Source of the DNA: Apteryx mantelli
Taxonomy: Eukaryota; Chordata; Aves; Apterygiformes; Apterygidae
DNA: 64,000 bases
Reading direction: 5' to 3'
NCBI RefSeq assembly: GCF_036417845.1
Contig: NC_090019.1
Span: 1-64,000 of the forward strand
Below are positions 11,257-64,000 of the stretch, in pieces. Both the position numbers and the translations under genes were made by a program. Position 1 is the stretch's first letter, and each line of letters starts with the position of its first letter. A model generated the notes under the pieces. The model was not told the DNA's origin, ran no database searches, and saw only the letters and a program-made list of their open reading frames with translations.

Positions 11257-14200
11257 CTGCGCCCGTCCCCGGTGTCCCCGTTTTAGCGGCGGCACCCATG
11301 GGTGCCCCCCACCCACCCACCCTCTTCCTCCTCCTCCTGCCCCCCTGGGTGCTGCCGGGAGCCCTGGGGTGGGATTTGGGATCCCTGGGGGGGGGGAGAT
11401 TGGGGCCCCTGGGTGCTGCCGGGACCTCTGGGTGCTCCTGGGACCCCCCTTGGGGTGGGATTTGGGACCCTTGGGTGCTCCTGGGGGGGGGGATTGGGAC
11501 CCCTGGGGGGGGGATTTGGGACCCCTTGGGTGCTCCCAAGACCCCTGGAGTGGGAGATTGGGGATTGGGACCGCCCTGGGGTGGGAACGGGACCCCTGGG
11601 TGCCCCTGGGACCCCCTGGGTGCTCCTGGGACCCCTGGGGGGGAGATTGGGACCCCTGGGTGCTCCCAGGACCCTTGGGTGCTCCTGGAATCCCTGGGGG
11701 GGGATTGGGGTCCCTGGGGGGGGGGGGGGATTGGGGAATGGGACCCTCCTGGGGAGCGGTTCAGCACCTCTGGGTGCTCTTGGGCATGGGATAGCACCCC
11801 TGGGTGCTCCCTGCGTTTGGGATTGGCTTCCCTGGGTGCTTCCTAAACATATTACATGGGGGGCACCCATGGGTGCTCTTTGGGGATGAAACAGCATCCT
11901 TGGGTGCTCCTAAGTCTGGTACAGCGCCCGTGGGTGCCCCTGGGCATGAGACTGGCACCCCTGGGTGCCCCCTGGGTATAAAATAACAGCTTTGGGTGCT
12001 CTCTCTTTTTATTATAGCACCCCTGGGTGCTCCTGGGCATGGAATTGGCACCCCTGGGTGCCCCCTGGGTTTAGAATAGCACCCCTGGGTGCTCCTGAGC
12101 ACGGGAATAGCACCCCTGGGTGCTCCTCGGGTAGGTTACAGCACCCCTGGGTGCCCCGGGCATGGGATGAGCACCCCTGGGTGCTCCCTAGATGCGCTAT
12201 AGCACCCCTGGGTGCTCCTCAGGTAGGTTATAGCACCCCTGGGTGCTCCTCAGCTGGGTTATAGCACCCCTGGGTGCTCCTGGCTGTGAGACTAGCACCC
12301 CTGGGTGCTCCTCGGATGGACTGCAGCACCCCTGGGTGCTCCTGGGCATGGGATGAGGACTTAGGAAGGTTCTTTGGGTAGGTTATAGCACCCCTGGGTG
12401 CTCCTGGGCATGGGACGAGCACCCCTGGGTGCTCCCTAAATGCGCTATAGCACCCCTGGGTGCTCCTGGATGCGGGATGAGGACTTAGGAAGGTTCTTTG
12501 GGTGGGTTATAGCACCCCTGGGTGCCCCCTGGGTGTAGCACAGCACCCCTGGGTGCTCCTCAGGTGGGTTATAGCACCCCTAGGTGCTCCTGGCTGTGAG
12601 ACTAGCACCCCTGGGTGCTCCTCGGGTAGACTGCAGCACCCCTGGGTGCTCCTGGATGCGGGATGAGGACTCAGGAAGGTTCTTTGGGTAGGTTATAGCA
12701 CCCCTGGGTGCTCCTGGGCATGGGACGAGCATCCCTGGGTGCTTCCTCTATTTATTATAGCACCCCTGGGTGCTCCTTGGGTAGGTTATAGCACCCCTGG
12801 GTGCTCCTGAGTATGTGACTGACACCCCTGGGTGCCCCCTGGGTGTAGCATAGCACCCCTGGGTGCTCCCAGACATGGGAATAGCACCCCTGGGTGCTCC
12901 CTAGATGCGCTATAGCACCCCTGGGTGCTCCTTGGGTGGGTTATAGCACCCCTGGGTGCTCCTGGCTATGGAATAAAGACCCTGGGATGTTTTTCGGCTA
13001 GGTTACAGCACCCCTGGGTGCTCCTAGGCATGGGACGAGCACCCCTGGGTGCTCCCTAGATAGGTTACAGCACCCCTGGGTGCTCCTTGGGTAGGTTACG
13101 GCACCCCTGGGTGCCCCTGGACACAGGACAAGCACCCCTGGGTGCTCCCTAGATGCGCTACAGCACCCCTGGGTGCTCCTGGCTGTGAGACTAACACCCC
13201 TGGGTGCTCCTGGCTGGGAAACTAGCACCCCTGGGTGCTCCTCAGGTGGGTTATAGCACCCCTGGGTGCTCCCTAAACGTGTTACAGCACCCCTGGGTGC
13301 TCCTGGCTGTGAGACTAGCACCCCTGGGTGCTCCTCGGGTAGACTGCAGCACCCCTGGGTGCTCCTGGATGCGGGATGAGGACTTAGGAAGGTTCTTTGG
13401 GTAGGTTACAGCACCCCTGGGTGCCCCTAGGCATGGGACGAGCACCCCTGGGTGCTCCCTAGATGTGTTACAGCACTTCTAGGTGTTCTTAACTACAAGA
13501 CTAGCACCCCTGGGTGCTCCTTGAGTAGGTTATAGCACCCCTGGGTGCTCCTGGGCACGGGCTGAGCACCCCTGGGTGCCCCCTGCGTTTGGGATTGGTT
13601 TCCCTGGGTGCTTCCTAACTATATTACAGCACCCATGGGTGCTCTTTGGGGATGAAACTGCATCCTTGGGTGCTCCTAAGTCTGGTATAGCATCTGTGGG
13701 TGCTCCTGGGCATGGAATTGGCACCCCTGGGTGCCCCCTAAATGCGCTATAGCACCCCTGGATGCTCCTTGAGTAGGTTATAGCACCCCTGGGCGCTCCT
13801 GAGTGTGTGACTGGCACCTCTGGGTGCCCCCTGAGTGTAGCATAGCACCCCTGGGTGCTCCTGGGCATGGTATAGCACCCCTGGGTGCTCCTTGGGTAGG
13901 TTAGAGCACCCCTGGGTGCTCCTAGGCATGGGACGAGCACCCCTGGGTGCTCCCTAGATGCGTTATAGCACCTCTGGGTGCTCCTGGGCATGGCACAAGC
14001 ACCCCTGGGTGCTCCCTAGATGTATTACAGCACCTCTAGATGCTCTTAACTACAAGACTAGCACCCCTGGGTGCTCCTTGGGTAGGTTATAGCACCCCTG
14101 GGTGCTCCCGGGTATGCGATTGGCACCCCTGGGTGCCCCCTGAGTGTAGCTTAGCACCCCTGGGTGCTCCCAGGCATGGGAATAGCACCCCTGGGTGCTC

Positions 14201-17200
14201 CTGGCTATGGGATGAGGACCCTGGGATGTTTTTCAGGTAGGTTAGAGCACCCCTGGGTGCTCCCTAAACATGTTATAGCACCCCTAGGTGCTCCTGGCTG
14301 TGAGACTAGCACCCCTGGGTGCTCCTCGGGTAGACTGCAGCACCCCTGGGTGCTCCTGGATGCAGGATGAGGACTTAGGAAGGTTCTTTGGGTAGGTTAT
14401 AGCACCCCTGGGTGCTCCTGGACATGGGACGAGCACCCCTGGGTGCTCCCTAGATGTGTTATAGCACCCCTGGGTGCTCCTGGGCATGGAATTGGCACCC
14501 CTGGGTGCCCCCTGGGTTTAGAATAGCACCCCTGGGTGCCCCTGGAAATGGGACGAGCACCCCTGGGTGCTCCCTAGATGCGCTATAGCACCCCTGGGTA
14601 CCCCCTGATTAGGTTATAGCACCCCTGGGTGCTCCTGGGTATGTGACTGGCACCCCTGGGTGCCCCCTGGGTGTAGAATAGCACCCCTAGGTGCTCCTGG
14701 CTGTGAGACTAGCACCCCTGGGTGCTCCTTGGGTAGACTGCAGCACCCCTGGGTGCTCCTGGATGCGGGATGAGGACTTAGGAAGGTTCTTTGGGTAGGT
14801 TAGAGCACCCCTGGGTGCCCCTAGGCATGGAATAGCACCCCTGGGTGCTTCCTAGATGCGTTATAGCACCCCTGGGTGCTCCCTGCGTTGGGGATTGGCG
14901 TTTTTGGGTGTTTCCTAAATATATTACAGCACCCATGGGTGCTCTTTGGGGATGAAACAGCATCCTCGGGTGCTCCTAAGTCTGGTACAGCGCCTGTGGG
15001 TGCTCCTGGGCATGAGACTGGCACCCCTGGGTGCCCCCTGGGTGTAGAATAACATCTTTGGGTGCTCCCTCTATTTATTATAGCACCCCTGGGTGCTCCT
15101 GGATATGGGACGAGCACCCCTGGTTGCTCCCTAGATGTATTACAACATCTATAAGTGCTTTTAACTACAAGACTAGCACCCCTGGGTGCTCCTTGGGTAG
15201 GCTACAGCACCCCTGGGTGCTCCCTAGGAATGGTGTTGGCACCCCTGGGTGCCTCCAGGCGTAGGCTAGCACCCCTGGGTGCTCTTGACTATGGGATGAG
15301 GACCCCGGGATGTTCTTTGGGTAGGTGACGGCACCCCTGGGTGCTCCTGGGCATGGGATGAGCACCCCTGGGTGCTCCCTGCATTTGGGATTGGCTTCTC
15401 TGGGTGCTTCCTAACTATATTACAGCACCCATGGGTGCTCTTTGGGGATGAAACAGCATCCTTGGGTGCTCCTAAGTCTGGTATAGCGCCCGTGGGTGCT
15501 CCTGGGCATGGGATTGGCACCCCTGGGTGCCCCCTGGGTTTAGAATAGCACCCCTGGGTGCTCCTGGCTATGGGAATAGCACCCCTGGGTGCTCCTGGCT
15601 ATGGGATGAGGACCCTGGGATGTTTTTCGGGTAGGTTACAGCACCCCTGGGTGCTCCTCAGGCAGGTTATAGCACCCCTGGGTGCTCCTGGCTGTGAGAC
15701 TAGCACCCCTGGGTGCTCCTGAGTATGTGACTGGGACCCCTGGGTGCCCCCTGAGTGTAGCACAGCACCCCTGGGTGCTCCTGGGCATGGGAATAGCACC
15801 CCTGGGTGCTCCTGGCTATGGGATGAGGACCCCAAGATGTTTTTCGGGTAGGTTATAGCACCCCTAGGTGCTCCTGGCTGTGAGACTAGCACCCCTGGGT
15901 GCTCCTCAGGTGGCTTATAGCACCCCTGGGTGCTCCTGGGCATGGGATAAGCACCCCTGGGTGCTCCCTAAACGTGTTATAGCACCCCTGGGTGCTCCTG
16001 AGTATGTGACTGACACCCCTGGGTGCTCCTGGGTGGGGGACGAACACCCCTGGGTGCTCCCTAGATGTGTTATAGCACCCCTGGGTGCCCCCTGGGTGTA
16101 GCATAGCACTCCTGGGTGCTCCTGGGCATGGGAATAGCACCCCTGGGTGCTCCTGGCTATGGGATGAGGACCCCGGATGTTTTTCGGGTAGGTTACAGCA
16201 CCCCTGGGTGCTCCTCAGGCAGGTTATAGCACTCCTGGGTGCTCCTAGGTATGGCACAAGCACTCCTGGGTGCTCCTTGAGGAGGTTATAGCACCCCTGG
16301 GTGCTCCTGGGCATGGGAATAGCACCCCTGGGTGCTCCTGGCTGAGAGACTAACACCCCTGGGTGCTCCTCGGGTAGACTGCAGCACCCCTGGGTGCTCC
16401 TGGATGCGGGATGAGGACTCAGGAAGGTTCTTTGGGTAGGTTACAGCACCCCTGGGTGCCCCTAGGCATGGGACGAGCACCCCTGGGTGCTCCCTAGATA
16501 GGTAATAGCACCCCTGGGTGCTCCTTGGGTGGGTTATAGCACCCCTAGGTGCTCCTGGCTGTGCGATTAGCACCCCTGGGTGCTCCTCGGGTAGACTGCA
16601 GCACCCCTGGGTGCTCCTGGCTGTGAGACTAGCACCCCTGGGTGCTCCTCGGGTAGACTGCAGCACCCCTGGGTGCTCCTGGATGCGGGGTGAGGACTCA
16701 GGAAGGTTCTTTGGGTAGGTTACAGCACCCCTGGGTGCTCCTGGGCAGGGGACGAGCACCCCTGGGTGCTCCTGGCTGTGAGACTAGCACCCCTGGGTGC
16801 TCCTCGGGTAGAATGCAGCACCCCTGGGTGCTCCTGGATGCGGGATGAGGACTTAGGAAGGTTCTTTGGGTAGGTTATAGCACCCCTGGGTGCCCCTGGA
16901 CATGGGATGAGCACCCCTGGGTGATCCTAGATGCGCTATAGCACCCCTGGGTGCTCCTTGGGTAGACTGCAGCACCCCTGGGTGCTCCTGGATGCGGGAT
17001 GAGGACTTAGGAAGGTTCTTTGGGTAGGTTATAGCACCCCTGGGTGCCCCTAGGCATGGAATAGCACCCCTGGGTGATCCTAGATGCGCTATAGCACCCC
17101 TGGGTGCTCCTTGGGTAGGTGGCAGCACCCCTGGGTGCCCCTGGGCATGGGACTGGCACCCTGGGTGCCCCCTGGGTGTAGCATAGCACCCCTGGGTGCT

Positions 17201-20200
17201 CCCGGACATGGGAATAGCACCCCTGGGTGCTCCCTAGATGCGCTATAGCACCCCTGGGTGCTCCTGGCTATGGAATAAAGACCCTGGGATGTTTTTCGGC
17301 TAGGTTACAGCACCCCTGGGTGCTCCCTAGATAGGTTACAGCACCCCTGGGTGCTCCTTGGGTAGGTTACGGCACCCCTGGGTGCCCCTGGACACAGGAC
17401 AAGCACCCCTGGGTGCTCCCTAGATGCGCTATAGCACCCCTGGGTGCTCCTGGCTGTGAGACTAACACCCCTGGGTGCTCCTCGGGTAGACTGCAGCACC
17501 CCTGGGTGCTCCTGGATGCGGGATGAGGACTTAGGAAGGTTCTTTGGGTAGGTTACAGCACCCCTGGGTGCCCCTAGGCATGGGACGAGCACCCCTGGGT
17601 GCTCCCTAGATGTGTTACAGCACTTCTAGGTGCTCTTAACTACAAGACTAGCACCCCTGGGTGCTCCTTGAGTAGGTTATAGCACCCCTGGGTGCTCCTG
17701 GGCACGGGCTGAGCACCCCTGGGTGCCCCCTGCGTTTGGGATTGGTTTCCCTGGGTGCTTCCTAACTATATTACAGCACCCATGGGTGCTCTTTGGGGAT
17801 GAAACAGCATCTTTGGGTGCTCCTAAGTCTGGTATAGCGCCCGTGGGTGCCCCTGGGCATGAGACTGGCATCCCTGGGTGCCCCCTGGGTGTAGAATAGC
17901 ACCCCTGGGTGCTCCTTGGGTAGGTTATAGCACCCCTGCGTGCTCCCGGGTATGCGATTGGCACCCCTGGGTGCCCCCTGAGTGTAGCATAGCACCCCTG
18001 GGTGCTCCTGGGCATGGGAATAGCACCCCTGGGTGCTCCTGGCTATGGGATGAGGACCCTGGGATGTTTTTTCAGGTAGGTTACAGCACCCCTGGGTGCT
18101 CCTGGGCATGGAATTGGCACCCCTGGGTGCCCCCTGGGTGTAGCATAGCACCCCTGGGTGCTCCTGGGCATGGGAATAGCACCCCTGGGTGCTCCTGGCT
18201 ATGGAATTGGCACCCCTGGGTGCTCCTGGCTACGGGATGAGGACCCCGGATGTTCTTCGGGTAGGTTACAGCACCCCTGGGTGCTCCTCAGGTCGGTTAT
18301 AGCACCCCTGGGTGCTCCTGGGAATGGCACAAGCACCCCTGGGTGCTCCTTGCGTAGGTTATAGCACCCCTGGGTGCTCCTGAGCATGGGAATAGCACCC
18401 CTGGGTGCTCCTGGCTGTGAGACTAGCACCCCTGGGTGCTCCTGGGCATGGCACAAGCACCCCTGGGTGCTCCTTGCGTAGGTTATAGCACCCCTGGGTG
18501 CTCCTGAGCATGGGAATAGCACCCCTGGGTGCTCCTGGCTGTGAGACTAACACCCCTGGGTGCTCCTGGGCATGGGAATAGCACCCCTGGGTGCTCCTGA
18601 CTCTGGAATGAAGACCCTGGGATGTTTTTCGGGTAGGTTACAGCACCCCCGGGTGCTCCTCAGGTGGGTTATAGCACCCCTGGGTGCCCCTAGGCATGGC
18701 ACAAGCACCCTTGGGTGCTTCCCAGATGTATTACAGTACGTCTAGGTGCTCTTAACTACAAGACTAGCACCCCTGGGTGCTCCTTGAGTGGGTTATAGCA
18801 CCCCTGGGTGCCCCTGGACACAGGATAAGCACCCCTGGGTGCTCCCTAGATGTGTTATAGCACCCCTAGGTGCTCCTGGGCATGGGACTAGCACCCCTGG
18901 GTGCTCCTGGCTATGGGATGAGGACCAGGGGATGCTTTTCAGGTAGGTTACAGCACCCCTGGGTGCTCCTGGGCATGGAATAGCACCCCTGGGTGCTCCT
19001 TGGGTAGGTTAGAGCACCCCTGGGTGCTCCCTAAACGTGTTACAGCACCCTTAGGTGCTCCTGGCTGTGAGACTAGCACCCCTGGGTGCTCCTCGGGTAG
19101 ACTGCAGCACCCCTGGGTGCTCCTGGGCATGGAATAGCACCCCTGGGTGCTCCCTAGATGCGCTATAGCACCCCTGGGTGCTCCTGGGTATGTGACTGGC
19201 ACCCCTGGGTGCTCCTGGGCATGGAATAGCACCCCTGGGTGCTCCCTAGATGCGCTATAGCACCCCTGGGTGCTCCTGGGTATGTGACTGGCACCCCTGG
19301 GTGCTCCTAGGCATGGCACAAACACCCCTGGGTGCTTCCTAGATGTATTACAGCACCTCTAGGTGTTCTTAACTACAAGACTAGCACCCCTGGGTGCTCC
19401 TTGAGTAGGTTACAGCACCCCTGGGTGCTCCTGGGCACGGGCTGAGCACCCCTGGGTGCTTCCTGCGTTCGGGATTGGTGCTTCTGGGTACTTCCTAAGC
19501 ATATTACAACACCCATGGGTGCTCTTTGGGGATGAAACAGCATCCTGGGGTGCTCCTAAGTCTGGTATGGCGCCTGTGGGTGCTCCTGGGTATGGGATTG
19601 GCACCCCTGGGTGCCCCCTGGGTGTAGAATAGCATCCCTGGGTGCTCCTTGGTCAGGTTACGGCACCCCTGGGTGCTCCTTGGGTGGGTTATAGCACCCC
19701 TGGGTGCTCCTGGGTCAGGTTACGACACCCCTGGGTGCCCCTGGAAACGGGACGAGCACCCCTGGGTGATCCCTAAATGCGCTATAGCACCCCTGGGTGC
19801 TCCTTGGGTAGGTTAGAGCACCCCTGGGTGCTCCTGAGTGTAGCACAGCACCCCTGGGTGCTCCTGGGCATGGGAATAGCACCCCTGGGTGCTCCTGGCT
19901 ATGGGATGAGGACCCCAAGATGTTTTTCGGGTAGGTGACAGCACCCCTGGGTGCTCCTCAGGTGGGTTTTAGCACCCCTGGGTGCTCCTGGCTGTGAGAC
20001 TAGCACCCCTGGGTGCTCCTCGGGTAGACTGCAGCACCCCTGGGTGCTCCTGGATGCGGGATGAGGACTTAGGAAGGTTCTTTGGGTAGGTTAGAGCACC
20101 CCTGGGTGCCCCTAGGCATGGGACGAGCACCCCTGGGTGCTCCCTAGATGTGTTATAGCACCCCTGGGTGCTCCCGGGTATGCGATTGGCACCCCTGGGT

Positions 20201-28654: not shown

Positions 28655-28679
28655 GGCGCCGGCGTCACCCCGGTGGCAC
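28638..28679 (-). CDS. RBM10: RBM10 exon with start codon
   Basis: 42 bp, acceptor CCCCCAG at 28,680 and donor AG|GTAAAG at 28,637. It holds 25 nt of 5' UTR and ATG at 28,654-28,652, encoding MEYER plus two bases of the next arginine. This is the exact RBM10 N-terminus. No competing ATG lies in this short exon. Confidence 0.93.
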
Positions 28680-28681
28680 CT

Positions 28682-29385
28682 GGGGGGGGGGGGGCGGCGA
28701 GATGGGGGCAACTGGGAGGGACTGGGGGGGGGCAGATAGGGGCCCCGGGGGGCAACTGGGACAGATTTGGGGGGGGGGGGACACCGGAAGAGCTTGGGGC
28801 ACACTGGGACGGACTGGGGGCAACTGGGAGGGAAGAGGGGGGCACTGGGGGTGTCTGGGGGGGCGACTGGGATGTGCCGGGGGGCGGATGGGGGCACTGA
28901 GGTGGACTGGGGGGCAACTGGGAGGGATTAGGGGGCAACTGGGATGGACTGGGGGCAACTGGTAGGGGACTGGGAAGCACTGGGAGGGTCTGGGGGGCAA
29001 CTGGGATGTGCTGGGGGGGCCGATGGGGGCACTGGCCGGACTGGGGGGCAACTGGAAGGCAACTAAGGGGAACTGGGAGACACTGGGAGGGTCTGGGGGG
29101 CAACTGGGAGAGACTGGGGGCAACTGGGAAGGGACTGGGAGTCACTGGGAGGGACTGGGGGGCAACTGGGAGGGACTGGGGGCAACTGGGAAGGGACTGG
29201 GAGTCACTGGGAGGGACTGGGGGGCAACTGGGAGGGACTGGGGGCAACTGGGAAGGGACTGGGGGGCCAATGGGGGCCCTGGGCGGACTGGGGGGCAACT
29301 GGGAGGGACTGGGGGCAACTGGGGGGCAACTGGGAGGGAACTGGGGGCCAACGGGGCAGACTGGGAGGCCCTGGGACCTGCCCCA
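28682..29385. repeat. ACTGGGAGGGACTGGGGGCA repeats (RBM10 intron 1)
   Basis: About 700 bp of units around 20 bp built from GGGACTGGGGGCAACTGGGA. G-rich on plus and C-rich on the RBM10 sense strand. The same family fills part of a UBA1 intron at 50,262-51,130. Confidence 0.9.
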
Positions 29386-30130: not shown

Positions 30131-30343
30131 ATGGCGGCGCTGGCCGGGTGCGGGCGGGCGCTGCGGGCGCTGCGGGTGGCGGCGGCGGCCGCCGGGCGCG
30201 GGCCGGGAAGTGGAAGCGGGGTGCGGCGGCGCTCGGCTGCAGCCGGTACCGTGAGTCCCGCCCCGCCCTCGGCCGCCGCCGCCGCCGCCCGCCACCGCCA
30301 CGCCGAGGAGGAGGAGGAAGGGTTGTGGGCGATGCAGCGCAAG
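30131..30343 (+). CDS. NDUFB11: NDUFB11 exon 1: presequence
   Basis: 71 codons. ATG at 30,131 sits in a GTGTCATGGCGGC context. Donor AAG|GTCGGC is weak at +4/+5 but gives RK|HPDTHGF, matching the human EK|NPDSHGY junction in phase 0. An earlier strong donor, GTACC|GTGAGT near 30,250, would remove the conserved acidic segment, so I prefer the longer exon. Confidence 0.8.
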
Positions 30344-54000: not shown

Positions 54001-57000
54001 GTGTTCCACAACGTTCTCCACATCTTTCGTCTTCCATATTCTTTCATATTCTTCGTTTTCCATGTTTTCCCACGTTTCTTATGTCCTCCATGTTCCTCTA
54101 CGTTCCTCCACATCCCCCCATGTTTTCCGTGTTCTCCGTGTTCTCCACGTTGCTCGTATTTTCCATGTCCTCCACGTTTTTCCATGTTTTCCATGTTTCG
54201 TATGTTCTCCGTGTCCCGCATCTCTCCACGTTCTCCGTGTTTCTCCGTGTTTTCCATGTTCTTCAATGTCCTTTCACATCCCTTTACATCCCCCCACGTC
54301 CCTCCATGTTTTCCATGTTCCTCCACATTCCATGTTCTCTGTCTTCCGTCCTCCATGATTCTCCATGTTCTTTTGTGTTTTTCATGTTCTTCCATGTTTT
54401 CCATGTCTTCCCATGTCTTTCATGTTCTCCATGTTCCTCTACGTTCTTCTACGTTTCTCCACCTTCCACCACGTTCTTCAGATCTTCCATCTTCCTTCGT
54501 TTTCTCTGTTTCTCCATGTTTTCTCAAGTCTTCCATGTTCTCCGTGTTCCTCTATGTTCCTCCACGTCCCCCCATGTTCTCCCCGTTCCACCATGTTCTT
54601 CAGATCTTCCATCTTTCTTCGCATTTTTCACATTCTTCCATGTTTTTCATGTTTTCCATGTTTTTCCATGTCTTCAATGTTCTTCATGTTCCTCTACGTT
54701 TCTCCACGTTCCACCATGTTCTTCAGATCTTCCATCTTCATTCGTTTTCTCCGTGTTCCTCCATGTTTTCCCATGTCTTCCATGTTCTCCATGTTCCTCT
54801 ACGTTCCTCCACCTCCCCCCATGTTCTCTATGTTCCACTATGTTCTTCAGATCTTCCATCTTCCTTCGCGTACTTCATGTTTCTTTATGTTTTCCATGTT
54901 TTCCCACGTCTTCCATGTTTTCCATGTTCATCTACGTTCTTCCCTGTTCCACCATGTTCTTCTGATCTTCCATCTTCCTTCCTATTCTCCATGTTTCTCT
55001 GTTTTCCATGTCTTTTCATGTCTTCCGTGTTCTCCATGTTCCTCTACGTTTCTCTACATTCCATGTTTTTCAGATCTTCTATCTTCCTTTCTATTTTTCA
55101 TGTTCTTCCATGTTTTCCGTGTTTTCCCATGTCTTCCATGTTCTCCATGTTCCTCTATGTTTTTCCATGTTCCTTTACATTCTTCCACGTTCCACTATGT
55201 TCTTCAGATCTTGTTTTCCTTCATTTTCTCCGTGTTCCTCCATGTTTTCCCGTCTTCCATGTTTTCCATGTTCCCCTACGTTCCTCCTCGTTCCACCACG
55301 TTCTCTACGTTCCACCATGTTCTTCAGATCTTCCGTTTTTCTTCCTATTCTCCATGTTTTTCCATGTTTTCCATGTCTTCCCATGTCTTCCATCTTTTCT
55401 ATGTTCCTCTATGTTTCTCTACTTTCTACGTTCTTCAGATCTTCTATCTTCCTTCTTGTTCTTCATGTTTTTCCGTGTTTTCCGCGTCTTCTCGTGTCTT
55501 CCATGCTCTCCGTGTTCCTCTACGTTCCTTTATGTTCCTCTACGTTTCTTCACGTTCCACCATCATCTTCAGATCTTCCATTTTCCTTCATGTTCTGTAT
55601 GTTTCTCCATGTTCTTCCATGTTCTTCCATGTTCCTCCATGTTTTCCACGTTCTCCATGTTCCTCCCCGTTCCGGCGCGTCCCCCGGCGTGTCCCCGGTG
55701 GTGACGGGCGGCGATGTCCCCGCAGGGCGACGCGGCGGAGGTGCTGGCGCTGGCGCGGGGCCTCTTCCCCGGGGCCGAGCTGCAGGAGGAGCTGCTGCGG
55801 GAGCTGGCGCTGCAGGCCAGCGGCGACCTGGCGCCCGTCAACGCCTTCATCGGCGGCCTGGCCGCCCAGGAGGTCATGAAGGTACCGGACGCCTGGGCCC
55901 CCTGCCTCGCCCCGGACGCCTGGGCCCCTTCACCCCGGACGCCTGGGCCCTTTCCCCGGACGCCTGGGCCCTTTCCTGGACGCCTGGGTTCCTGCCCCGG
56001 ACACCTGGGTCCCTCCCCGGACACCTGGGCCCTTTCCCCGGACGCCTGGGCCCCTTCCCCGGACACCTGGGCCCCTCACCCGGACGCCTGGGCCCCTTCC
56101 CCGGATGCCTGGGCCCTTCCCCCGGATGCCTGGGCCCTTTCCCGGACGCCTGGGCCCCTCTCCCGGACACCTGGGCCCCTCTCCCGGACGCCTGGGCCCC
56201 TTCCCTGGACACCTGAGCCCCTTCCCGGACGCCTGGGCCCCTCACCCGGATGCCTGGGCCCCTTTTCCCGGACGCCTGGGCCCTTTCCCCGGACGCCTGG
56301 GCCCCTTTCCCCGGACACCTGGGCCCCTTTCCCGGACGCCTGGGCCCCTTTCCCGGACACCTGGGCCCCTCTCCCGGACGCCTGGGCCCTTTCCCGGACG
56401 CCTGGGCCCCTTCCTTGGACACCTGGGCCCTTTCCCCGGACACCTGGGCCCTTTCCCGGACGCCTGGGCCCCTCACCCGGACGCCTGGGCCCCTTCCTTG
56501 GACACCTGGGCCCTTTCCCTGGACGCCTGGGCCCCTCACCCGGACGCCTGGGCCCCTCTCCCAGACACCTGGGCCCCTCACCCGGACACCTGGGCCCCTT
56601 TCCCGGACGCCTGGGCCCTTCCCCCGGACGCCTGGGCCCCTCTCCCGGATGCCTGGGCCCCTTCCCTGAACACCTGGGCCCTTTTCCCGGACGCCTGGGC
56701 CCCTCTCCCGGATACCTGGGCCCCTTCCCTGAACACCTGGGCCCCTCTCCCGGACGCCTGGGCCCCTCTCCCGGATGCCTGGGCCCCTCACCCGGATGCC
56801 TGGGCCCCTTCCCTGAACACCTGGGCCCCTCTCCCGGACGCCTGGGCCCTTTCCCCGGACGCCTGGGCCCCTCTCCCGGACGCCTGGGCCCCTTTCCCGG
56901 ACGCCTGGGCCCCTTTCCCGGACGCCTGGGTTCATTCCCGGACACCTGGGCCCCTTCCCGGACACCTGGGCCCTTCCCCGGACGCCTGGGCCCCTCACCC

Positions 57001-60000
57001 AGACGCCTGGGCCCCTTCCCCGGACGCCTGGGTCCCTTTCTCGGACGCCTGGGCCCTTTTCCCGGACACCTGGGCCCCTTTCCCGGAAACCTGGGCCCTT
57101 TCCCCGGACACCTGGGCCCTTTCCCGAACACCTGGGCCCTTTCCCCGGACGCCTGGGCCCTTTCCCCGGACGCCTGGGCCCCTCTCCCGGATGCCTGGGC
57201 CCTTTCCCGGACACCTGGGCCCCTTTCCCGGACACCTGGGCCCTTTCCTGGACACCTGGGCCCCTTCCCCGGACGCCTGGGCCCCTCTCCCGGACGCCTG
57301 GGCCCCTCACCCGGACGCCTGGGCCCCTCACCCGGACGCCTGGGCCCCTTTCCCGGACGCCTGGGCCCCTCTCCCGGACGCCTGGGCCCCTCACCCGGAT
57401 GCCTGGGCCCTTTCCCCAGACGCCTGGGCCCCTCACCCGGATGCCTGGGCCCCTCACCCGGATGCCTGGGCCCCTTCCCTGAACACCTGGGCCCCTCTCC
57501 CGGACGCCTGGGCCCTTTCCCCGGACGCCTGGGCCCCTCACCCGGACGCCTGGGCCCCTCTCCCGGACGCCTGGGCCCCTCACCCGGACGCCTGGGCCCC
57601 TCTCCCGCAGGCCTGCTCGGGCAAGTTCATGCCGGTGACGCAGTGGCTTTACTTCGACGCCCTCGAGTGTCTCCCCGAGGAGAACAGGGAGACGCTGCTC
57701 ACCGAGGAGACCTGCCGCCCCGTGAGCACCCGCGGTTTGGGGGCACCCATGGGTGGGGGGGGGGGCACCCAAGGGTGCTGGGGGGGCAGCTGGGGGGGGG
57801 GGCTGGGATTCGGGGCACCCCGGTTTGGGGCACCCCAGGGTGGGCACCCAACTGGGGACACCCATTTTTGGGGCACCCAATTTGGGGTCTCTGATTTGGG
57901 GCACCCAACTCGGAGCACCCACTTTTGGGGCACCCAGTTCCGGGTCCCTAATTTGGGGCACCCCAAGGTGAGCACCCAACTCGCGACACCCATTTTTGGG
58001 GCACCTGATTTGGGGCACCCCAGGGTGGGCACCCATTTGGGGACACCCGTATTTGGGGCACCCGATTTGGGGCGCCTAATTTGGGGGCACCCAACTGGGG
58101 ACACCCATTTTTGGGGCACCCAGTTCCAGGTCCCTAATTTGGGGCACCCAACTCGAAGCACCCACTTTTGGGGCACCCAATTTGGGGTCTGATTTGGGGC
58201 ACCCAACTCGAAGCACCCATTTTTGGGGCACCCAATTTTGGGGCTGTTTTGGGGCACCCAAACTTGGGGACCTGGTTTCGGGGTCCCCAATTCGGGGCAC
58301 CCCGAGGTGGGCGCCCAACTGGGGGCACCCAAATTCGGGGCACCCGATTTTGGGACGCCCCAATTCCGGACACCCGTTTTGGGGCACCCAACTCGGAGCA
58401 CCCACTTTTGGGGCACCCAAATTTGGGGCTGTTTCGGAGCACCCACTTTTGGGGCACCCACTTTTGGGGCACCCAAATTTGGGGCTGTTTCGGAGCACCC
58501 ACTTTTGGGGCACCCACTTTTGGGGCACCCAAATTTGGGGCCGTTTTGGGGCACCCACTTTTGGGGCACCCACTTTTGGGGCTGTTTCGGGGCACCCACT
58601 TTTGGGGCACCCAAATTTGGGGCCGTTTCGGGGCACCCACTTTCGGGGCACCCCGAGGTGGGCGCCCACCCTTGGGTGCCCGGAGGCGACGCGTCCCCCC
58701 GTGTTCGTGGCGTGTTCTTGGCGTGTTCACGGCGTGTCGTGGTGTCCCAGGGTGACACGGTGACATGTCACGTGTCATCGCGTGTCCTGGCGTGTCCTGG
58801 CGTGTGGTGGCACATCCAGGGGTGACACGGCACCGCGTCACGTGTCCTGGCATGTCCTGGCACGTGGTGGCACATCCGGGGGTGACACGGCACCGTGTCA
58901 CGTGTCATCATGTGTCACGGCGTCTCCTGGCGCCCGGGAGCCACTCGGGGACACCGTAACGTGTCACGACATGTCATGGCATGTCCCGGCATGTCATGGC
59001 ATGTTGTCACATGTTCTGGCGCGTGGTGGCACATCCGGGGGTGACACGGCACCGTGTCACGTGTCATCGCGTGTCGTGGCATCTCCCGGTGCCCGGGAGC
59101 CGCTCGGGGACGCTGTGTCACGTCCCGACGTGTCCCGACGTGTCCCGGCGCCTCATCACGTGTGTTAGGGTGTGTCGTCACGCGTGTCATCGCGTGTCAC
59201 GGCGTCTCCTGGTGCCTGGGAGCCGCTCGGGGACGCTGTGTCACGTCCCGACGTGTCCCGACGTGTCCCGGCGCCTCATCACGCGTGTCGGGGCGTGTCG
59301 TCACGCGTGTCATCACGTGTCACGGTGTCTCCTGGCGCCCGGGAGCTGCTCGGGGACGCCGTGTCGTGTCCCAACGTGTCCCGACGTGTCCCGATGCGTC
59401 CTGGTGCATCATCACGCGTGTCGGGGCGTGCGGTCACGCGTGTCATCACGTGTCGCAGCGTCTCCTGGCGCCCGGGAGCCGCTCGGGGACACCGTAACGC
59501 GTCCCGATGTGTCCCGACGTGTCCCGAGGCGTCATCACGTGTGTCGGGGCGTGTTGTCACGTGTCAGGGCGTGCGGTCACGCGTGTCATCACGTGTCACA
59601 GCGTCTCCCGGCACCCGGGAGCCCCTCGGGGACGCCGCGTCACGTCCCGATGTGTCCCGACGTGTCCCAGCACATCATCACACGTGTCGGGGTGTGCGGT
59701 TCACGCGTGTCATCACGTGTCACGGAATCTCCCGGCGCCCGGGAGCCGCTCGGGGACACCGTGTCGTGTCCCGACGTGTCCCGATGTGTCCTGATATGTC
59801 CCGATGTGTCCCAGTGCGTCGTCACGCGTGTCGGGGCGTGCGGTCACACGTGTCATCGCGTGTCGCGGCGTTTCCCGGCGCCCAGGAGCCGCTCGGGGAC
59901 ACCGTAACGTGTCACAACGTGTCATGACGTGTCACAGTGCGTCATGGCGTGTCGTCACGCGTGTTGGGGCGTGCAGACACGCGTGTCATCACGTGTCGCA

Positions 60001-60635
60001 GCGTCTCCCGGCGCCCGGGAGCCGCTCAGGGACACCGTAACGCGTCCCAACGTGTCCCGACGCGTCCCAATGTGTCCCGAGGTGTCGTCACGCGTGTCGG
60101 GGCGTGTTGTCACGTGTCAGGGCATGTCATCACGCGTGTCGTCATGTGTCACGGCGTCTCCCGGCGCCCGGGAGCCGCTCGGGGACGCCGTGCCGTGTCA
60201 CAATGTGTCATGGCGTGTCACAACGCGTCATGACGTGTTATCACGTGTCGGGGCGTGTTGTCACACGTGTCATCGTGTGTCGCGGCGTCTCCCGGCGCCC
60301 GGGAGCCGCTCGGGGACACCGTGTCGCGTCCCGACATGTCCTGACATGTTCCGACGTGTCCCGAGGTGTCCCGGCGCGTCATCATGCGTGTCGGGGCGTG
60401 CGGTCACACGTGTCATCACGTGTCACGGCGTCTCCCGGCGCCCGGGAGCCGCTCGGGGACGCCGTGTCGCGTCGCGACGTGTCCCGACGTGTCCCGACGT
60501 GTCATGACGAGTTGTCACGCGTGTGGTCACGCGTGTCCCCGCGTGTCCCCGCAGCGCAACAGCCGCTACGACGGGCAGATCGCCGTGTTCGGGGCGGAGC
60601 TGCAGGCCAAGCTCGGCGCCCAGAAGTACTTCGTG
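38965..60635 (+). CDS. UBA1: UBA1, ubiquitin-activating enzyme E1 (5' part, exons split)
   Basis: UBA1 adenylates ubiquitin with ATP, forms the E1 thioester and passes ubiquitin to E2s, in nucleus and cytosol. Twelve coding exons give 469 codons with consistent phases and GT-AG borders. Order: [12 protein letters not shown] with a PLSKKRR nuclear signal (1-12); internal start Met42; inactive adenylation half with [12 protein letters not shown] (Arg58 matches the ATP-contacting Arg of the family) and [20 protein letters not shown] with [16 protein letters not shown]; four-helix segment; [17 protein letters not shown]; then [11 protein letters not shown] opening the active adenylation half. Colinear with human UBA1 to about human residue 472. 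The GAGAIGCE loop, catalytic cysteine domain and ubiquitin-fold domain are right of the window. UBA6 and UBA7 lack this N-terminus. Confidence 0.96.
39085..40640. repeat. ~70-bp tandem repeats, GGTGTCACC type (UBA1 intron)
   Basis: Units with CTGCCCCCAATGAAGGGAGC and CAGCACCCCTGGCAACGGG segments alternate, with starts near 39,193, 39,266, 39,332, 39,390, 39,460, 39,534, 39,602 and onward. All are separated by GGTGTCACCCGCTTG. Decays after about 40,100. It separates the two UBA1 start-codon exons. Confidence 0.88.
40657..40715 (+). CDS. UBA1: UBA1 coding exon 2: cytosolic-isoform start
   Basis: 59 bp, acceptor CTCTTCCCTACAG, donor CAGCT|GTGAGT. Encodes [19 protein letters not shown] plus two bases of Leu. 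The ATG at 40,660-40,662 equals human Met41, the start of cytoplasmic UBA1b; GGGCATGG is a good initiation context. Confidence 0.95.
40716..40971. repeat. Short UBA1 intron with shared CCCGGACGCCTGGGCCC copies
   Basis: Five copies, all sense. The first begins 8 bp into the intron (GTGAGTCACCCGGACG). The middle is G-rich. Confidence 0.85.
40972..41140 (+). CDS. UBA1: UBA1 coding exon 3: inactive adenylation domain core
   Basis: 169 bp; completes Leu, then 56 codons beginning [20 protein letters not shown] and ending DLASQ. Contains the Rossmann strand and loop [12 protein letters not shown] and VTLHD. Donor CAG|GTGAGC. Confidence 0.97.
41141..43095. repeat. ~25-bp GGGGGGAAAACGCCC repeats (UBA1 intron)
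   Basis: About 75-80 units of the form GGGGGGGAAAACGCCTGTCTG, with a GAAAACACCCACCTGG form after about 42,100. Strongly strand-asymmetric: G-runs and A-runs on the sense strand. The last ~50 bp before exon 4 are unique. Confidence 0.92.
43096..43230 (+). CDS. UBA1: UBA1 coding exon 4
   Basis: 45 codons, [20 protein letters not shown] through AELNSYV to LLAPFQ, phase 0 to 0. Acceptor GGCACAG, donor CAG|GTACAG. Human counterpart FYLREEDIGKNRAE...AELNSYV. Confidence 0.97.
43231..44630. repeat. CCTGTTTCTGGGTCCTG repeats grading to CGCCTGTTCCTGCGTC (UBA1 intron)
   Basis: First ~200 bp are irregular GT-rich. From about 43,460, ~18-bp units TTTCTGGGTCCTGCCTG; after 43,760 the units diverge to TTGTTGCGTCCGCCTG. 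No exon is expected here because the flanking exons are contiguous in human UBA1. Confidence 0.85.
44630..46260. repeat. ~141-bp higher-order repeat, about 11 copies (UBA1 intron)
   Basis: The word CAGGCAGCAGCAGGCAGCAT recurs near 44,749, 44,890, 45,035, 45,179, 45,303, 45,457, 45,610, 45,748, 45,887, 46,029 and 46,171. Between copies lie CGACCCCGTTTCCCCCTC, CGCGGCGGAGACG and GAGGCGTGTGGAAGCGTGTT. Continues to just before exon 5. Confidence 0.93.
46283..46389 (+). CDS. UBA1: UBA1 coding exon 5
   Basis: 107 bp, acceptor TGCCGCAG, donor CGG|GTGAGC. Encodes [20 protein letters not shown] through [12 protein letters not shown] plus two bases of Gly. Human counterpart [20 protein letters not shown]. 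Confidence 0.97.
46390..46554. repeat. Short UBA1 intron, shared repeat fused to donor
   Basis: GTGAGCCGGACGCCTGGG: the first repeat copy overlaps the donor. Four sense copies, then a CCTCCCCTCCCCC pyrimidine tract and GCAG. Confidence 0.9.
46555..46645 (+). CDS. UBA1: UBA1 coding exon 6
   Basis: 91 bp; completes Gly, then 30 codons [20 protein letters not shown] through SAMVSMVTK. Acceptor TTTGCAG, donor AAG|GTACCG. Confidence 0.97.
46646..48235. repeat. Shared CCCGGACGCCTGGGCCC array with 145- and 518-bp higher-order structure (UBA1 intron)
   Basis: About 45 sense copies. The donor itself is GTACCGGACGCCTGGG. Spacers alternate among GGTGGGTTTTGGTGTCTC, TTGCAGGCAGGTTC, TCGCGGGCAGGTTC and TTTGTGGGCAGGTTTTGG. 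Sequence around 46,891-47,130 recurs apparently unchanged at 47,409-47,648 (offset 518). Confidence 0.95.
48236..48368 (+). CDS. UBA1: UBA1 coding exon 7: FCCH domain
   Basis: 133 bp; acceptor GGCGCCAG, donor TGG|GTGAGC. Encodes [20 protein letters not shown] and [15 protein letters not shown] plus one base. Human counterpart [20 protein letters not shown]. The acceptor tract CCCCTTTTCTT lies 14 bp back because GGCGCGGGCGCCAG intervenes. Confidence 0.96.
48369..50163. repeat. Shared CCCGGACGCCTGGGCCC array, TTTTCCCGGACGCC form (UBA1 intron)
   Basis: About 60 sense copies of ~29 bp, spacer mostly CCTCGCGGGTGTTTT or CCTCGTGGGTCTTTT. The donor GTGAGCCCGGACGCC runs straight into the array. The last copy ends 12 bp before the acceptor. 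Confidence 0.96.
50164..50261 (+). CDS. UBA1: UBA1 coding exon 8
   Basis: 98 bp; completes Gly, then [20 protein letters not shown] and [12 protein letters not shown]. Acceptor CCCGCAG, donor TTC|GTGAGT. Human counterpart [20 protein letters not shown]. Confidence 0.97.
50262..51130. repeat. ACTGGGAGGGACTGGGAGG repeats (UBA1 intron)
   Basis: Loose ~20-25 bp units of ACTGGGAGGG, GATTGGGGGG and CACTGGGAGG. Same family as RBM10 intron 1 at 28,682-29,385 and on the same absolute strand. Confidence 0.92.
51130..52000. repeat. ACACGCTCCAACACGCCTC / ACATGCTCCAACATGCCTC repeats (UBA1 intron)
   Basis: ~19-bp units CAACACGCCTCTACACGCTC. Units are mostly CACG to about 51,540 and mostly CATG afterwards, again looking like CpG-to-TpG change of one unit. 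Confidence 0.9.
52007..52153 (+). CDS. UBA1: UBA1 coding exon 9: start of four-helix segment
   Basis: 49 codons, acceptor CCCCCTCGCAG, donor CAG|GTACGG. Encodes [20 protein letters not shown] then [17 protein letters not shown]. Human counterpart [18 protein letters not shown]...HGRPPRPRN. Confidence 0.97.
52154..53335. repeat. ~75-90-bp repeats, AAAACACGCTAAAAACACGCGATAAC (UBA1 intron)
   Basis: Units contain GATAACACGCCATGG, GCGGGAAAACATGCC, AAAACGGGCC and GAAACGGCCAAAACACGC. About 13-14 copies. One copy near 52,530-52,625 carries a TACACGCCTTCCTGCGG segment duplicated from exon 9. Confidence 0.9.
53336..55700. repeat. Pyrimidine-rich TCCATGTTCTCC repeats with ~122-bp higher-order unit (UBA1 intron)
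   Basis: TCTCCATGTTCCTC and TACGTTCCTCCA words throughout. From about 54,478 a TTCAGATCTTCCATCTTCC module recurs near 54,600, 54,722, 54,845, 54,965, 55,066, 55,203, 55,326, 55,436 and 55,569, so about every 122 bp. Strong strand bias. Long frames rich in [10 protein letters not shown] are artefacts. Confidence 0.93.
55726..55881 (+). CDS. UBA1: UBA1 coding exon 10: four-helix segment, shorter than human
   Basis: 52 codons, acceptor CCCCGCAG, donor [29 protein letters not shown] then [26 protein letters not shown]. The human segment from my memory is 59 residues: about seven are missing at the NARALPAVQQNN loop. No frame problem. Confidence 0.95.
55882..57610. repeat. Shared CCCGGACGCCTGGGCCC array, pure form (UBA1 intron)
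   Basis: About 85 sense units near 20 bp, CCTCTCCCGGACGCCTGGG and TTTCCCCGGACGCCTGGG. Frequent CpG-decay forms are GGACACCTGGG and GGATGCCTGGG. The donor is GTACCGGACGCC and the acceptor CTCTCCCGCAG is itself the beginning of a repeat unit. The intron has essentially no other sequence. Confidence 0.97.
57611..57721 (+). CDS. UBA1: UBA1 coding exon 11
   Basis: 37 codons [20 protein letters not shown] and [17 protein letters not shown]; donor CCC|GTGAGC. Human counterpart [21 protein letters not shown]. Confidence 0.97.
57722..58690. repeat. TTTGGGGCACCCAACT repeats (UBA1 intron)
   Basis: Units of about 20-25 bp: TTTTGGGGCACCCAATTTGG, CTCGGAGCACCCAC, with a GGGGCTGTTTCGGAGC module later. Around 40 units. 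Confidence 0.9.
58690..60550. repeat. ~120-160-bp higher-order repeats with CACGCGTGTC and CGCCCGGGAGCCGCTCGG (UBA1 intron)
   Basis: GGGAGCCGCTCGGGGAC recurs about 12 times (near 58,935, 59,095, 59,217, 59,340, 59,474, 59,606, 59,740, 59,884, 60,015, 60,168, 60,300, 60,447). The spacing is filled with GACGTGTCCC and GTCACGCGTGTCATCACGTG units. Confidence 0.93.
60555..60635 (+). CDS. UBA1: UBA1 coding exon 12: start of active adenylation half
   Basis: 27 codons [27 protein letters not shown], acceptor CCCCGCAG, donor GTG|GTGAGG. Human counterpart [20 protein letters not shown]. The next exon should open with V-GAGAIGCE but is beyond the window. Confidence 0.95.
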
Positions 60636-60689
60636 GTGAGGCCCCGCCCCCCGGCCCCGCCCCCTCCTTGGCCTGGCCCCGCCCCCCCT

Positions 60690-63480
60690 TACTGCGTCAT
60701 GGTGTCCCTTAGCGTGTCATGATGTCCCTTAGCGTGTCATGGCGTCCCTTAGCGTGTCATGATGTCCCTTAGCGTGTCACGGTGTCCCTTAGCGTGTCAT
60801 GATGTCCCTTAGCGTGTCATGATGTCCTTTACCGTGTCACGGCGTCCCTTAGCGTGTCATGATGTCCTTTACCGTGTCACGGCGTCCCTTAGCGTGTCAC
60901 GGTGTCCCTTAGCGTGTCACGGCGTCCCTCAGCGTGTCACGGTGTCCCTTAGCGTGTCACGGTGTCCCTTAGCGTGTCACGGTGTCCCTTAGCGTGTCAC
61001 AATGTCCCTTAGCGTGTCACAATGTCCCTTAGCGTGTCATGATGTCCCTTAGCGTGTCATGGTGTCCCTTAGTGTGTCATGGTGTCCCTTAGCGTGTCAC
61101 AGTGTCCCTTAGTGTGTCATGGTGTCCCTTAGCGTGTCACAGTGTCCCTTAGCGTGTCATGGTGTCCTTTAGCGTGTCACGGTGTCCCTTAGCGTGTCAT
61201 GGTGTCCTTTAGCGTGTCACAGTGTCCCTTAGCGTGTCATGGTGTCCCTTAGCGTGTCACGGTGTCCCTTAGCGTGTCATGGTGTCCCTTAGTGTGTCAT
61301 GGTGTCCCTTAGCGTGTCACAGTGTCCCTTAGCGTGTCATGGTGTCCCTTAGCGTGTCACGGTGTCCCTTAGCGTGTCACGATGTCCCTTAGCGTGTCAC
61401 AGTGTCCCTTAGCGTGTCACGGTGTCCCTTAGTGCGTCATGATGTCCCTTAGTGCGTCATGATGTCCCTTAGTGTGTCATGGTGTCCCTTAGCGTGTCAT
61501 GGTGTCCCTTAGCGTGTCACGGTGTCCCTTAGTGTGTCATGGTGTCCCTTAGCGTGTCACGGTGTCCCTTAGTGTGTCTTGGTCTCCCTTAGCGTGTCAT
61601 GGTGTTCCTTAGTGTGTCATGGTGTCCCTTAGCGTGTCACAGTGTCCCTTAGTGTGTCGTGGTGCCCCTTAGTGTGTCATGGTGTCCCTTAGCATGTCAT
61701 GATGTCCCTTAGTGTGTCATGGTGTCCCTTAGCGTGTCATGGTGTTCCTTAGCGTGTCACGGTGTCCCTTAGTGTGTCTTGGTCTCCCTTAGCGTGTCAT
61801 GGTGTTCCTTAGTGTGTCATGGTGTCCCTTAGCGTGTCACAGTGTCCCTTAGCGTGTCACGGTGTCCCTTAGCGTGTCACGGTGTCCCTTAGTGCGTCAT
61901 GATGTCCCTTAGTGTGTCATGGTGTCCCTTAGTGTGTCACGGTGTCCCTTAGTGTGTCATGGTGTTCCTTAGCGTGTCATGGTGTCCCTTAGCGTGTCAC
62001 GGTGTCCCTTAGCGTGTCACGATGTCCCTTAGCGTGTCACGGTGTCCCTTAGCGTGTCATGGTGTCCCTTAGCGTGTCACGGTGTCCCTTAGCATGTCAT
62101 GGTGTCCCTTAGCGTGTCATGATGTCCCTTAGCGTGTCACGGCGCCCCTTAGTGTGTCATGGTGTCCCTTAGCGTGTCACGGTGTCCCTTAGTGTGTCAT
62201 GGTGTCCCTTAGCGTGTCACGGTGTCCCTTAGTGTGTCATGGTGTTCCTTAGCGTGTCATGGTGTCCCTTAGCGTGTCATGGTGTCCCTTAGCGTGTCAT
62301 GGTGTCCCTTAGTGTGTCATGGTGTCCCTTAGCGTGTCACGGTGTTCCTTAGCGTGTCATGGTGTCCCTTAGCGTGTCATGGTGTCCCTTAGTGTGTCAT
62401 GGTGTTCCTTAGCGTGTCACGGTGTCCCTTAGCGTGTCATGGTGTCCCTTAGCGTGTCATGGTGTTCCTTAGCGTGTCACGGTGTCCCTTAGTGTGTCTT
62501 GGTCTCCCTTAGCGTGTCATGGTGTTCCTTAGTGTGTCATGGTGTCCCTTAGCGTGTCACAGTGTCCCTTAGCGTGTCACGGTGTCCCTTAGCGTGTCAC
62601 GGTGTCCCTTAGTGCGTCATGATGTCCCTTAGTGTGTCATGGTGTCCCTTAGTGTGTCACGGTGTCCCTTAGTGTGTCATGGTGTTCCTTAGCGTGTCAT
62701 GGTGTCCCTTAGCGTGTCACGGTGTCCCTTAGCGTGTCACGATGTCCCTTAGCGTGTCACGGTGTCCCTTAGCATGTCATGGTGTCCCTTAGCGTGTCAC
62801 GGTGTCCCTTAGCATGTCATGGTGTCCCTTAGCGTGTCATGATGTCCCTTAGCGTGTCACGGCGCCCCTTAGTGTGTCATGGTGTCCCTTAGCGTGTCAC
62901 GGTGTCCCTTAGTGTGTCATGGTGTCCCTTAGCGTGTCACGGTGTCCCTTAGCGTGTCACGGTGTCCCTTAGTGTGTCATGGTGTTCCTTAGCGTGTCAT
63001 GGTGTCCCTTAGCGTGTCATGGTGTCCCTTAGCGTGTCATGGTGTCCCTTAGTGTGTCGTGGTGCCCCTTAGTGTGTCATGGTGTCCCTTAGCATGTCAT
63101 GATGTCCCTTAGTGTGTCACGGTGTCCCTTAGCGTATCACAGTGTCCCTTAGTGTGTCATGGTGTCCCTTAGCGTGTCGTGGTGCCCCTTAGTGTGTCAT
63201 GGTGTCCCTTAGCGTGTCACGGCGTCCCTTAGCGTGTCACAGTGTCCCTTAGCGTGTCACGGTGTCCCTTAGCATGTCACAATGTCCCTTAGCGTGTCAT
63301 GATGTGCCTTAACGTGTCGTGGTGTCTGTTAGCGTGTTGTGGCATCCCTTGGCGTGTCACAGTGTCCCTTAGCATGTCATGGTGTCCCTTAGCGTGTCAC
63401 GGTGTCCCTTAGTGTATCACGACGCCCCTTAGCGTGTCACGGTGGCCCTTAGCGTGTTGCAAAGCGCCTTAGCGTGTCCC
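60690..63480. repeat. 20-bp array TGTCCCTTAGCGTGTCAYGG, ~139 units (UBA1 intron)
   Basis: Unit length is strictly 20 bp with no phase change across about 2.7 kb. Variation is almost all at a few sites (AGCGTG/AGTGTG/AGCATG, TCAC/TCAT, GG/GA/AG). A block of about 480 bp is repeated 720 bp away. Degenerates after about 63,300. Confidence 0.97.
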
Positions 63481-64000
63481 AGTGCCCCCTAACTGCCCCC
63501 CACTGCCCCATAGAGCCCCCCCGGCGCCCCATAGCGCCCCATAGAGCCCCCCAGTGCCCCATAGTGCCCCATAGCCACCCCCCAGCACCCCTTAGCACCC
63601 CATAGCTGCCCCCCAGCACCCCATAGAGCCCCCCCAGCACCCCGTAGAGCCCCATAGCTGCCCCCCAGCACCCCGTAGAGCCCCCCCGGCACCCCATAGA
63701 GCCCCATAGCCACCCCCCAGCACCCCCTAGCACCCCATAGCTGCCCCCCAGCACCCCATAGAGCCCCCCAGCACCCCATAGCACCCCATAGCCACCCCCC
63801 AGCACCCCATAGCACCCCATAGCCGTGTCCCAGCACCCCATAGAGCCCCCCCAGCACCCCGTAGAGCCCCATAGCCACCCCCCAGCACCCCATAGGGCCC
63901 CCCCAGCACCCCATAGCCGCGTCCCATCGCCCCTCGGCGGGTCCCAGCCGCCCCCCAGTGCCCCATAGCACCCCATAGCCGCCCCCCAGCACCCCATAGA
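63480..64000. repeat. AGCACCCCATAGAGCCCCCC repeats (UBA1 intron, to window edge)
   Basis: C-rich units of 20-30 bp: CAGCACCCCATAG with AGCCCCCC or CCACCCCC linkers. Sense strand nearly free of G-runs. Reaches the right edge with no exon. Confidence 0.92.

Follow-up and report, generated by a model that had tools for sequence, protein, structure and literature searches.

What has turned the introns of three conserved genes largely into tandem repeats, and did each intron amplify a sequence of its own? The question is raised by the first 64,000 bases of contig NC_090019.1 (C43, 245,289 bp), a stretch referred to here as the window, which holds three genes: RBM10 on the minus strand and NDUFB11 and UBA1 on the plus strand. 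The best explanation, and in our judgement probably the right one, is a tiny, gene-dense, GC-rich, dot-like bird chromosome whose introns undergo sequence stuttering. Short pieces lying between two exons would be copied head to tail and would then drift; many introns would thereby acquire a minisatellite of their own, occasionally seeded by an exon end, and the exons and splice sites would be kept by selection. The copying may proceed through slippage during repair or, where recombination is frequent, through gene conversion or unequal exchange; slippage, repair and conversion are indistinguishable from one assembly. It is probably still ongoing, and the chromosome is presumably one of the bird dot chromosomes, the bird origin being suggested by the likeness to the published chicken case and by a CR1-like LINE in the same genome.

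Tandem Repeats Finder (TRF), run over the whole window, assigned 54,141 of the 61,548 non-exonic bp to tandem repeat (88.0%), against 1.25% in ten dinucleotide shuffles per segment, which bears out the statement of an initial annotation that the non-exonic sequence is almost all tandem repeat. Four arbitrary 10-kb stretches on the large contigs C1, C5, C11 and C20 gave 0.6, 0.7, 0.0 and 0.6%. Further along C43, six successive 10-kb stretches from 64 to 124 kb were repetitive over 84, 91, 78, 55, 55 and 78% of their length; of the seven 10-kb stretches read beyond the window, these six included, each was at least 55% repeat, and the GC content in 1-kb bins ranged from 0.44 to 0.78. The introns are highly repetitive individually, with TRF coverage from 18.8% (UBA1 intron 3, 256 bp) to 99.7% (RBM10 intron 6, cut by the contig end; exon and intron numbers are our own), and the arrays begin a median of 11 nt after the 5' splice site (20 introns) and end a median of 33.5 nt before the 3' splice site (18 introns). 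The arrays had been described from position 11257 onwards, where TRF covers 43,100 of 52,744 bp, exons included; they are real and start earlier, with a 13-bp array at 3-11095 in a further RBM10 intron. The exons are indeed islands in this landscape, 105 of their 2,452 bp lying under a TRF row, and the earlier estimate of about 2.4 kb of coding sequence agrees with the sum of the 20 mapped exons. The annotation had also recognised no long interspersed nuclear element (LINE). One open reading frame of the same genome (L020), which by eye we take to be a CR1-like LINE, found nothing better than E 0.18 in C43:1-124000, in agreement with it, and pieces of the same frame were found in five of ten stretches elsewhere, each with a best E of 1.3e-4 or lower.

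Are the units private to their introns? All segments were compared by their 12-mers on both strands, with shuffles, and units were counted as exact matches in the 1,504,198,195-bp assembly of 408 contigs. In nine introns at most 4.4% of positions were common with any other segment. Four of them belong to RBM10 on the minus strand: intron 6, with a 13-bp array (3..11095, TRF, about 852 copies, 90% matches) that is already under way at the start of C43; intron 5, with a 31-bp array (11763..22432, TRF, about 344 copies, 67% matches), where 1.8% of positions have a 12-mer in common with another segment (at most 0.9% in shuffles); intron 4, with a 165/353-bp array (23297..23986, TRF); and intron 2, with a C/A-rich array of about 10 bp (26540..28194, TRF). 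The other five belong to UBA1 on the plus strand, all with TRF arrays: intron 4 (41162..43036; 20/41/63-bp GGGGGAAAAACAC-type arrays), intron 5 (43479..46277; 17-, 123- and 422-bp arrays separated by sequence without repeats), intron 10 (52328..55662; 71/91-bp and 19-bp CTCCATGTT arrays), intron 12 (57842..60524; 15/56-bp GGGCACCCA and 143/159-bp arrays) and intron 13, where a 20-bp array (60696..63457, 138 copies, 88% matches) is followed by a 52-bp CCCCATAG array that runs to the window end (63567..64000).

All 254 exact dimers of the 13-mer of RBM10 intron 6 lie in the window and none elsewhere in the genome, the 33 exact copies of the 20-mer of UBA1 intron 13 are all inside that intron, and seven of the eight exact copies of the 17-mer GGTGTCACCCTGCATCC are in UBA1 intron 1. 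Hence three of the four units counted in this way are private or nearly so, clustered locally; the GGACGCC family, whose core has 4,481 exact copies genome-wide, and the units of UBA1 introns 1 and 2 are not. These two introns have GGTGTCACC units in common over 17% and 13% of their positions: intron 1 consists mostly of GGTGTCACC arrays of 10/21/31/52/62 bp (35195..38899, plus strand, TRF, 5' end estimated) and intron 2 carries related arrays of 62-197 bp (39169..40088, plus strand, by TRF and the 12-mer comparison). Weak sharing, in opposite orientation relative to the genes, also connects RBM10 intron 1 with UBA1 intron 9. The claim that neighbouring introns have unrelated units is therefore right for many of them (13, 31, 10, 20, 17, 73, 19 and 143 bp, among others) and fails for the GGACGCC family, for UBA1 introns 1 and 2 and, weakly, for RBM10 intron 1 and UBA1 intron 9; likewise, the description of the minisatellites as private fits the first three units counted and not the GGACGCC core.

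The last 55 nt of UBA1 exon e10 (52007..52153, plus strand) recur in the adjacent intron 10 at 52537..52591, on the same strand and with 82% identity; the match scores 52.5 bits, whereas no shuffled sequence scored above 45.4, and represents a copied exon end. One other match exceeded that shuffled maximum, a GC-rich and distal one of NDUFB11 exon 1 in the RBM10 5' region. Within the 13-mer array the similarity between units falls from 0.895 at lag 1 to 0.755 at lag 320 (order-shuffled neighbours, 0.774), a decay with distance that fits repeated short-range copying. UBA1 intron 8 shows a slight trend, from 0.888 to 0.82 at lag 40, and a decay in three GGACGCC arrays, obtained by fixed-period comparison, was dismissed as an indel artefact. 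The three private or nearly private units and the re-copied exon end support the proposal of the initial annotation that introns amplify their own content.

Several results weigh against stuttering as a complete account. Of the 20 exons, only one has a copy of its end in the neighbouring sequence that outscores all shuffles. Similarity decay is clear in one of six arrays and was absent from RBM10 intron 3, UBA1 introns 7 and 11 and the 20-mer array, where a burst or longer-range exchange fits equally. Seven stretches selected for the core on the large contigs C2, C4, C11 and C20 are 21.8-60.0% repeat, so that the arrays are not confined to small contigs. About 14% of the window's repeat (8,107 bp) stems from one dispersed, non-private GGACGCC core, CCCGGACGCCTGGGCCCC, which is common to eight introns of the three genes and to the NDUFB11 3' flank and which crosses genes and contigs, a distribution that strictly local expansion does not predict. 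As a general rule, the phrase "rather than spread of one satellite" is not supported; at this share, though, no single consensus lies behind most families.

Copies of CCCGGACGCCTGGGCCCC with at most two mismatches on either strand number 59 in RBM10 intron 3, 3 and 7 in NDUFB11 introns 1 and 2, 18 in the NDUFB11 3' flank, and 5, 4, 40, 56 and 71 in UBA1 introns 3, 6, 7, 8 and 11. The unit is the core plus a spacer peculiar to the intron. In RBM10 intron 3 (24338..26283, minus strand, 31-bp array) the spacer is 12-14 nt; in UBA1, on the plus strand, it is 13 and 23-24 nt in intron 7 (46648..48214, 42 copies with at most three mismatches), 13-14 nt in intron 8 (48374..50149, 31-bp array, 57 such copies) and mostly 3 nt in intron 11 (55884..57600, 21-bp array, 79 such copies). 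The few copies of UBA1 introns 3 and 6 lie between e3 and e4 (40657..41140, plus strand) and between e6 and e7 (46283..46645, plus strand). In these six introns the first core is at intron position 3-9 (nt 6 in RBM10 intron 3), and the last one stops 10-33 nt short of the 3' splice site in the five UBA1 introns and 123 nt short of it in RBM10 intron 3. NDUFB11 (plus strand) has four GGACGCC clusters split by exons, at 31150-31238, 31387-31445, 31516-31623 and 31768-32319, with both orientations within its introns. Thus the GGACGCC arrays have the properties of a dispersed minisatellite: a common core, many loci and a locus-specific spacer.

Such a pattern would arise if ectopic gene conversion or templated insertion had first scattered a few short cores over the introns and local amplification had followed, GGACGCC being the visible case. 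We regard this alternative as possible and rather less than probable. It would account for the recurrence of one 18-mer core, combined with spacers that vary from intron to intron, in eight introns of the three genes, and for the 4,481 exact copies of the 19-mer genome-wide against none of a mirrored control; the first 100 listed sites run from C2 to C20, so that in listing order the other 4,381 are on C20 or later, smaller contigs. It would also account for the position of the core at 16 of 23 sense loci and 9 of 15 antisense loci, on C22 and later contigs, where 0-9 nt separate it from an exon-like 5' splice site. Finally, the core is better conserved than the spacer in three arrays (0.935 against 0.856 in RBM10 intron 3, 0.963 against 0.868 in UBA1 intron 8, and 0.984 against 0.828 at C43:72-73.8 kb, outside the window); the comparison used middle units not picked by their own core, and homopolymer runs in the spacers depress their apparent conservation. 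The small share of the core in the window's repeat and the nine introns that have next to nothing in common with other segments speak against dispersal as the general process. For the GGACGCC core itself, we tentatively suggest that ectopic conversion or templated insertion has seeded it (CCGGACGCCTGGGCCCC) next to the 5' splice sites of numerous genes on small, dot-like contigs; each seed would then have grown into the array of its intron, with a spacer peculiar to that intron and the core kept more constant than the spacer. If true, one mobile seed connects separate introns and makes the copying mechanism traceable. No copy of the core was found in viral contigs; no bird-repeat paper appeared among the matches listed for four 11-mers, judged by titles and the beginnings of abstracts, and the literature searched contained no description of a core shared across introns.

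The conservation of the core, and the location of arrays within a few nucleotides of splice sites, might also suggest that the arrays are kept because they function in splicing, chromatin or recombination. This is very unlikely, given that many units are mutually unrelated, that the core folds no better than shuffles (z 0.43 and 0.70) and that the two largest arrays contain hardly any G-quadruplex (G4) motifs. The last observation also means that G4 stalling is not the sole cause of the expansions.

The orientation of the core raised a further explanation. In the window 259 copies are sense and 4 antisense, although RBM10 opposes NDUFB11 and UBA1; from 64 to 124 kb of C43 there are 192 plus and 5 minus copies, with no minus copy before 105 kb and hence none in UBA1, and from 124 to 134 kb the exact core 13-mers number 90 against 3. 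In addition, the sense strand is richer in T than in A in 17 of the 20 introns of the window, though their units differ. A transcription-coupled process, in which array composition and core orientation follow the gene strand, would explain both, but we hold it to be improbable. Copies within an array are not independent, C43 contributes a handful of genes, and the core is not locked in orientation elsewhere: a lock to the sense strand, for which selection by splicing (avoidance of AG) had been proposed, holds on C43 and was rejected genome-wide. A loose search of the genome gave 118 matches of a donor with a sense core and 140 with an antisense core; among 20 sampled loci of each kind, 5 sense and 15 antisense ones had the core on the upstream side of the donor string as well, which indicates that many antisense matches are internal to arrays, and an exon-like score of at least 8 was reached by 5 and 3 loci, respectively. 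A stricter search gave 28 sense and 20 antisense matches. Exon-likeness was judged by a coding score of the upstream 220 nt, which in a calibration with 19 donors of the window and 243 further GT sites had a sensitivity of 0.79 and a false-positive rate of 0.004. For 23 sense and 15 antisense matches the score was obtained; the five left out per side were judged by position or identical strings only, as the same arrays or inverted copies. The proportions with exon-like upstream sequence did not differ between the orientations (Fisher p 0.73). Sense orientation of the core is therefore not a general rule; what holds beyond C43 is that it lies next to exon-like donors in many genes of other contigs. 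AG is rarer in sense in 15 of the 20 introns (Wilcoxon p 0.008), RBM10 intron 5 (11 kb) being the opposite case, and this depletion vanished once base composition was taken into account (12 of 20, p 0.33). No avoidance of GT in sense was seen, its frequency being lower in 7 of the 20 introns.

Among the loci examined for the core, L018 (C20:16053000-16062999) differs from the genic arrays: its core orientation alternates rapidly (69 plus and 42 minus exact 13-mers) and no clear gene was found in it. The 124-134 kb stretch of C43 (L026, C43:124001-134000) contains CXXC1 on the plus strand (PDB 9c0o_A, E 9.5e-16), with many core copies between its exons and three antisense copies shortly after one of them. 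The exons read by eye at C43:99-117 kb (L012-L014) presumably belong to a CCDC115-like gene on the minus strand and to IMP4-like and MON1-like genes on the plus strand. The donor-core loci L075 and L086 look like duplicates, as do L050 and L087; C124 and C34 each have matching sites in opposite orientation and C41 and C308 identical sequences, which suggests inverted duplications or unmerged haplotypes. At C36:1146841-1148455, 31 donor-like GGTGAGCAGGGG strings stand beside an antisense core, mostly 51 bp apart. At C37:472491-473674 (L057 at its start), immediately behind an exon end read by eye as SART1-like, there are 18 occurrences of a donor-like string followed by the antisense GGACGCC core, most of them spaced by about 50-60 or 100 bp; they form a candidate exon-stutter array.

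Could the arrays have been collapsed or invented in assembling noisy long reads? The start of C43 inside the 13-bp array and a frame change in one RBM10 exon (26289..26488, minus strand, by translation and borders) near runs of C and G might be taken to say so; the frame change is probably an assembly error in homopolymer length, possibly real. An assembly artefact is nevertheless extremely unlikely, as 12 UBA1 exons join in frame and the same architecture is found in chicken data obtained independently, where raw reads back it at one gene, according to the parts of PMC12954441 consulted. Apart from that RBM10 exon, the coding exons are intact. Exon borders were placed by eye at AG/GT and are not independent evidence; the genes are identified by their translated exons. 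Those of UBA1 matched PDB 9mc4_A (E 2e-200), those of NDUFB11 PDB 6zka_w (E 1.6e-31) and Pfam ESSS, and those of RBM10 PDB 2lxi_A, which is RBM10 (E 1e-27). The other RBM10 exons, all on the minus strand, are at 11183..11256 (within RRM1, by its borders and the 2lxi_A match), at 22509..22578 and 24029..24214 (protein match and borders), and at 28638..28679, with the start codon (MEYERR; translation and borders). The exon at 24029-24214, queried alone, gave weak matches, E 0.02 to RBM5 and 0.06 to RBM10. NDUFB11 comprises, on the plus strand, exon 1 (30131..30343, 6zka_w match and borders), exon 2 (31248..31378, Pfam ESSS, E 1.9e-13) and exon 3 with the stop codon (31639..31767, Pfam ESSS, E 2.2e-8). 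The first coding exon of UBA1 (38965..39084, plus strand) was placed by its borders and in-frame join; e10 and the remaining exons on that strand, by protein match and borders, the latter being e3 (40657-40715), e4 (40972-41140), e5 (43096..43230), e6 (46283-46389), e7 (46555-46645), e8 (48236..48368), e9 (50164..50261), e11 (55726..55881), e12 (57611..57721) and e13 (60555..60635). Further UBA1 exons, read by eye, continue past the window to about 91.5 kb of C43.

The remaining arrays of the window, as delimited by TRF, are a 21/62-bp ACTGGGAGG array in the upstream RBM10 intron or 5' region (28796..29356, minus strand), intergenic arrays of CCCCTATAGG type with periods of 9, 19, 63 and 217 bp (32584..34665, plus strand), and those of UBA1 intron 9 (50268..51987, plus strand), where ACTGGGAGG (73 bp) is followed by CAACACGCC (about 20-90 bp).

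In classical dispersed minisatellites a core family recurs with variable spacers, and the GGACGCC core with its spacers resembles them. It differs in being located in introns, beside 5' splice sites and, on C43, mostly in one orientation relative to the gene.

Introns built of repeats have been described in birds. Beauclair et al. (2019, PMC6792250) report, in the parts consulted, that in chicken the genes TNF-alpha, MRPL52, PCP2 and PET100 have introns and flanks consisting of nothing but tandem repeats, and the introns described here are like those of such GC-rich "hidden" avian genes; G4 motifs are stressed there, whereas the two longest arrays here have almost none. Sequence stuttering was described for chicken dot chromosomes in February 2026 (Hron et al. 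2026, GBE evag038, PMC12954441). The parts of that article consulted report introns rich in repeats, each with a single local motif or several, spared exons, copied exon ends, lengths that vary strongly from chicken to chicken, some cases of local expansion in other birds and raw nanopore support at PHF8; its main text does not name UBA1, RBM10 or NDUFB11. The present genome, at 1.5 Gb, is larger than that of chicken. The window agrees with that account in its imperfect arrays over most intron sequence, its units of tens to hundreds of bp, its spared exons, one or several motifs per intron, the occasional exon-end copy, the few interspersed repeats and the high GC content. It provides an independent, quantified case of stuttered introns, in three conserved genes and apparently in a bird other than chicken, in which genome-wide counts show some arrays to be unique to a single intron. 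The same article calls the expansions strictly local. Our finding is that known type of stuttering at three further genes, and the dispersed core, one family common to many introns, genes and contigs, is the part that goes beyond "strictly local" and marks a limit of the published model; it makes local expansion versus seeding testable with existing bird assemblies.

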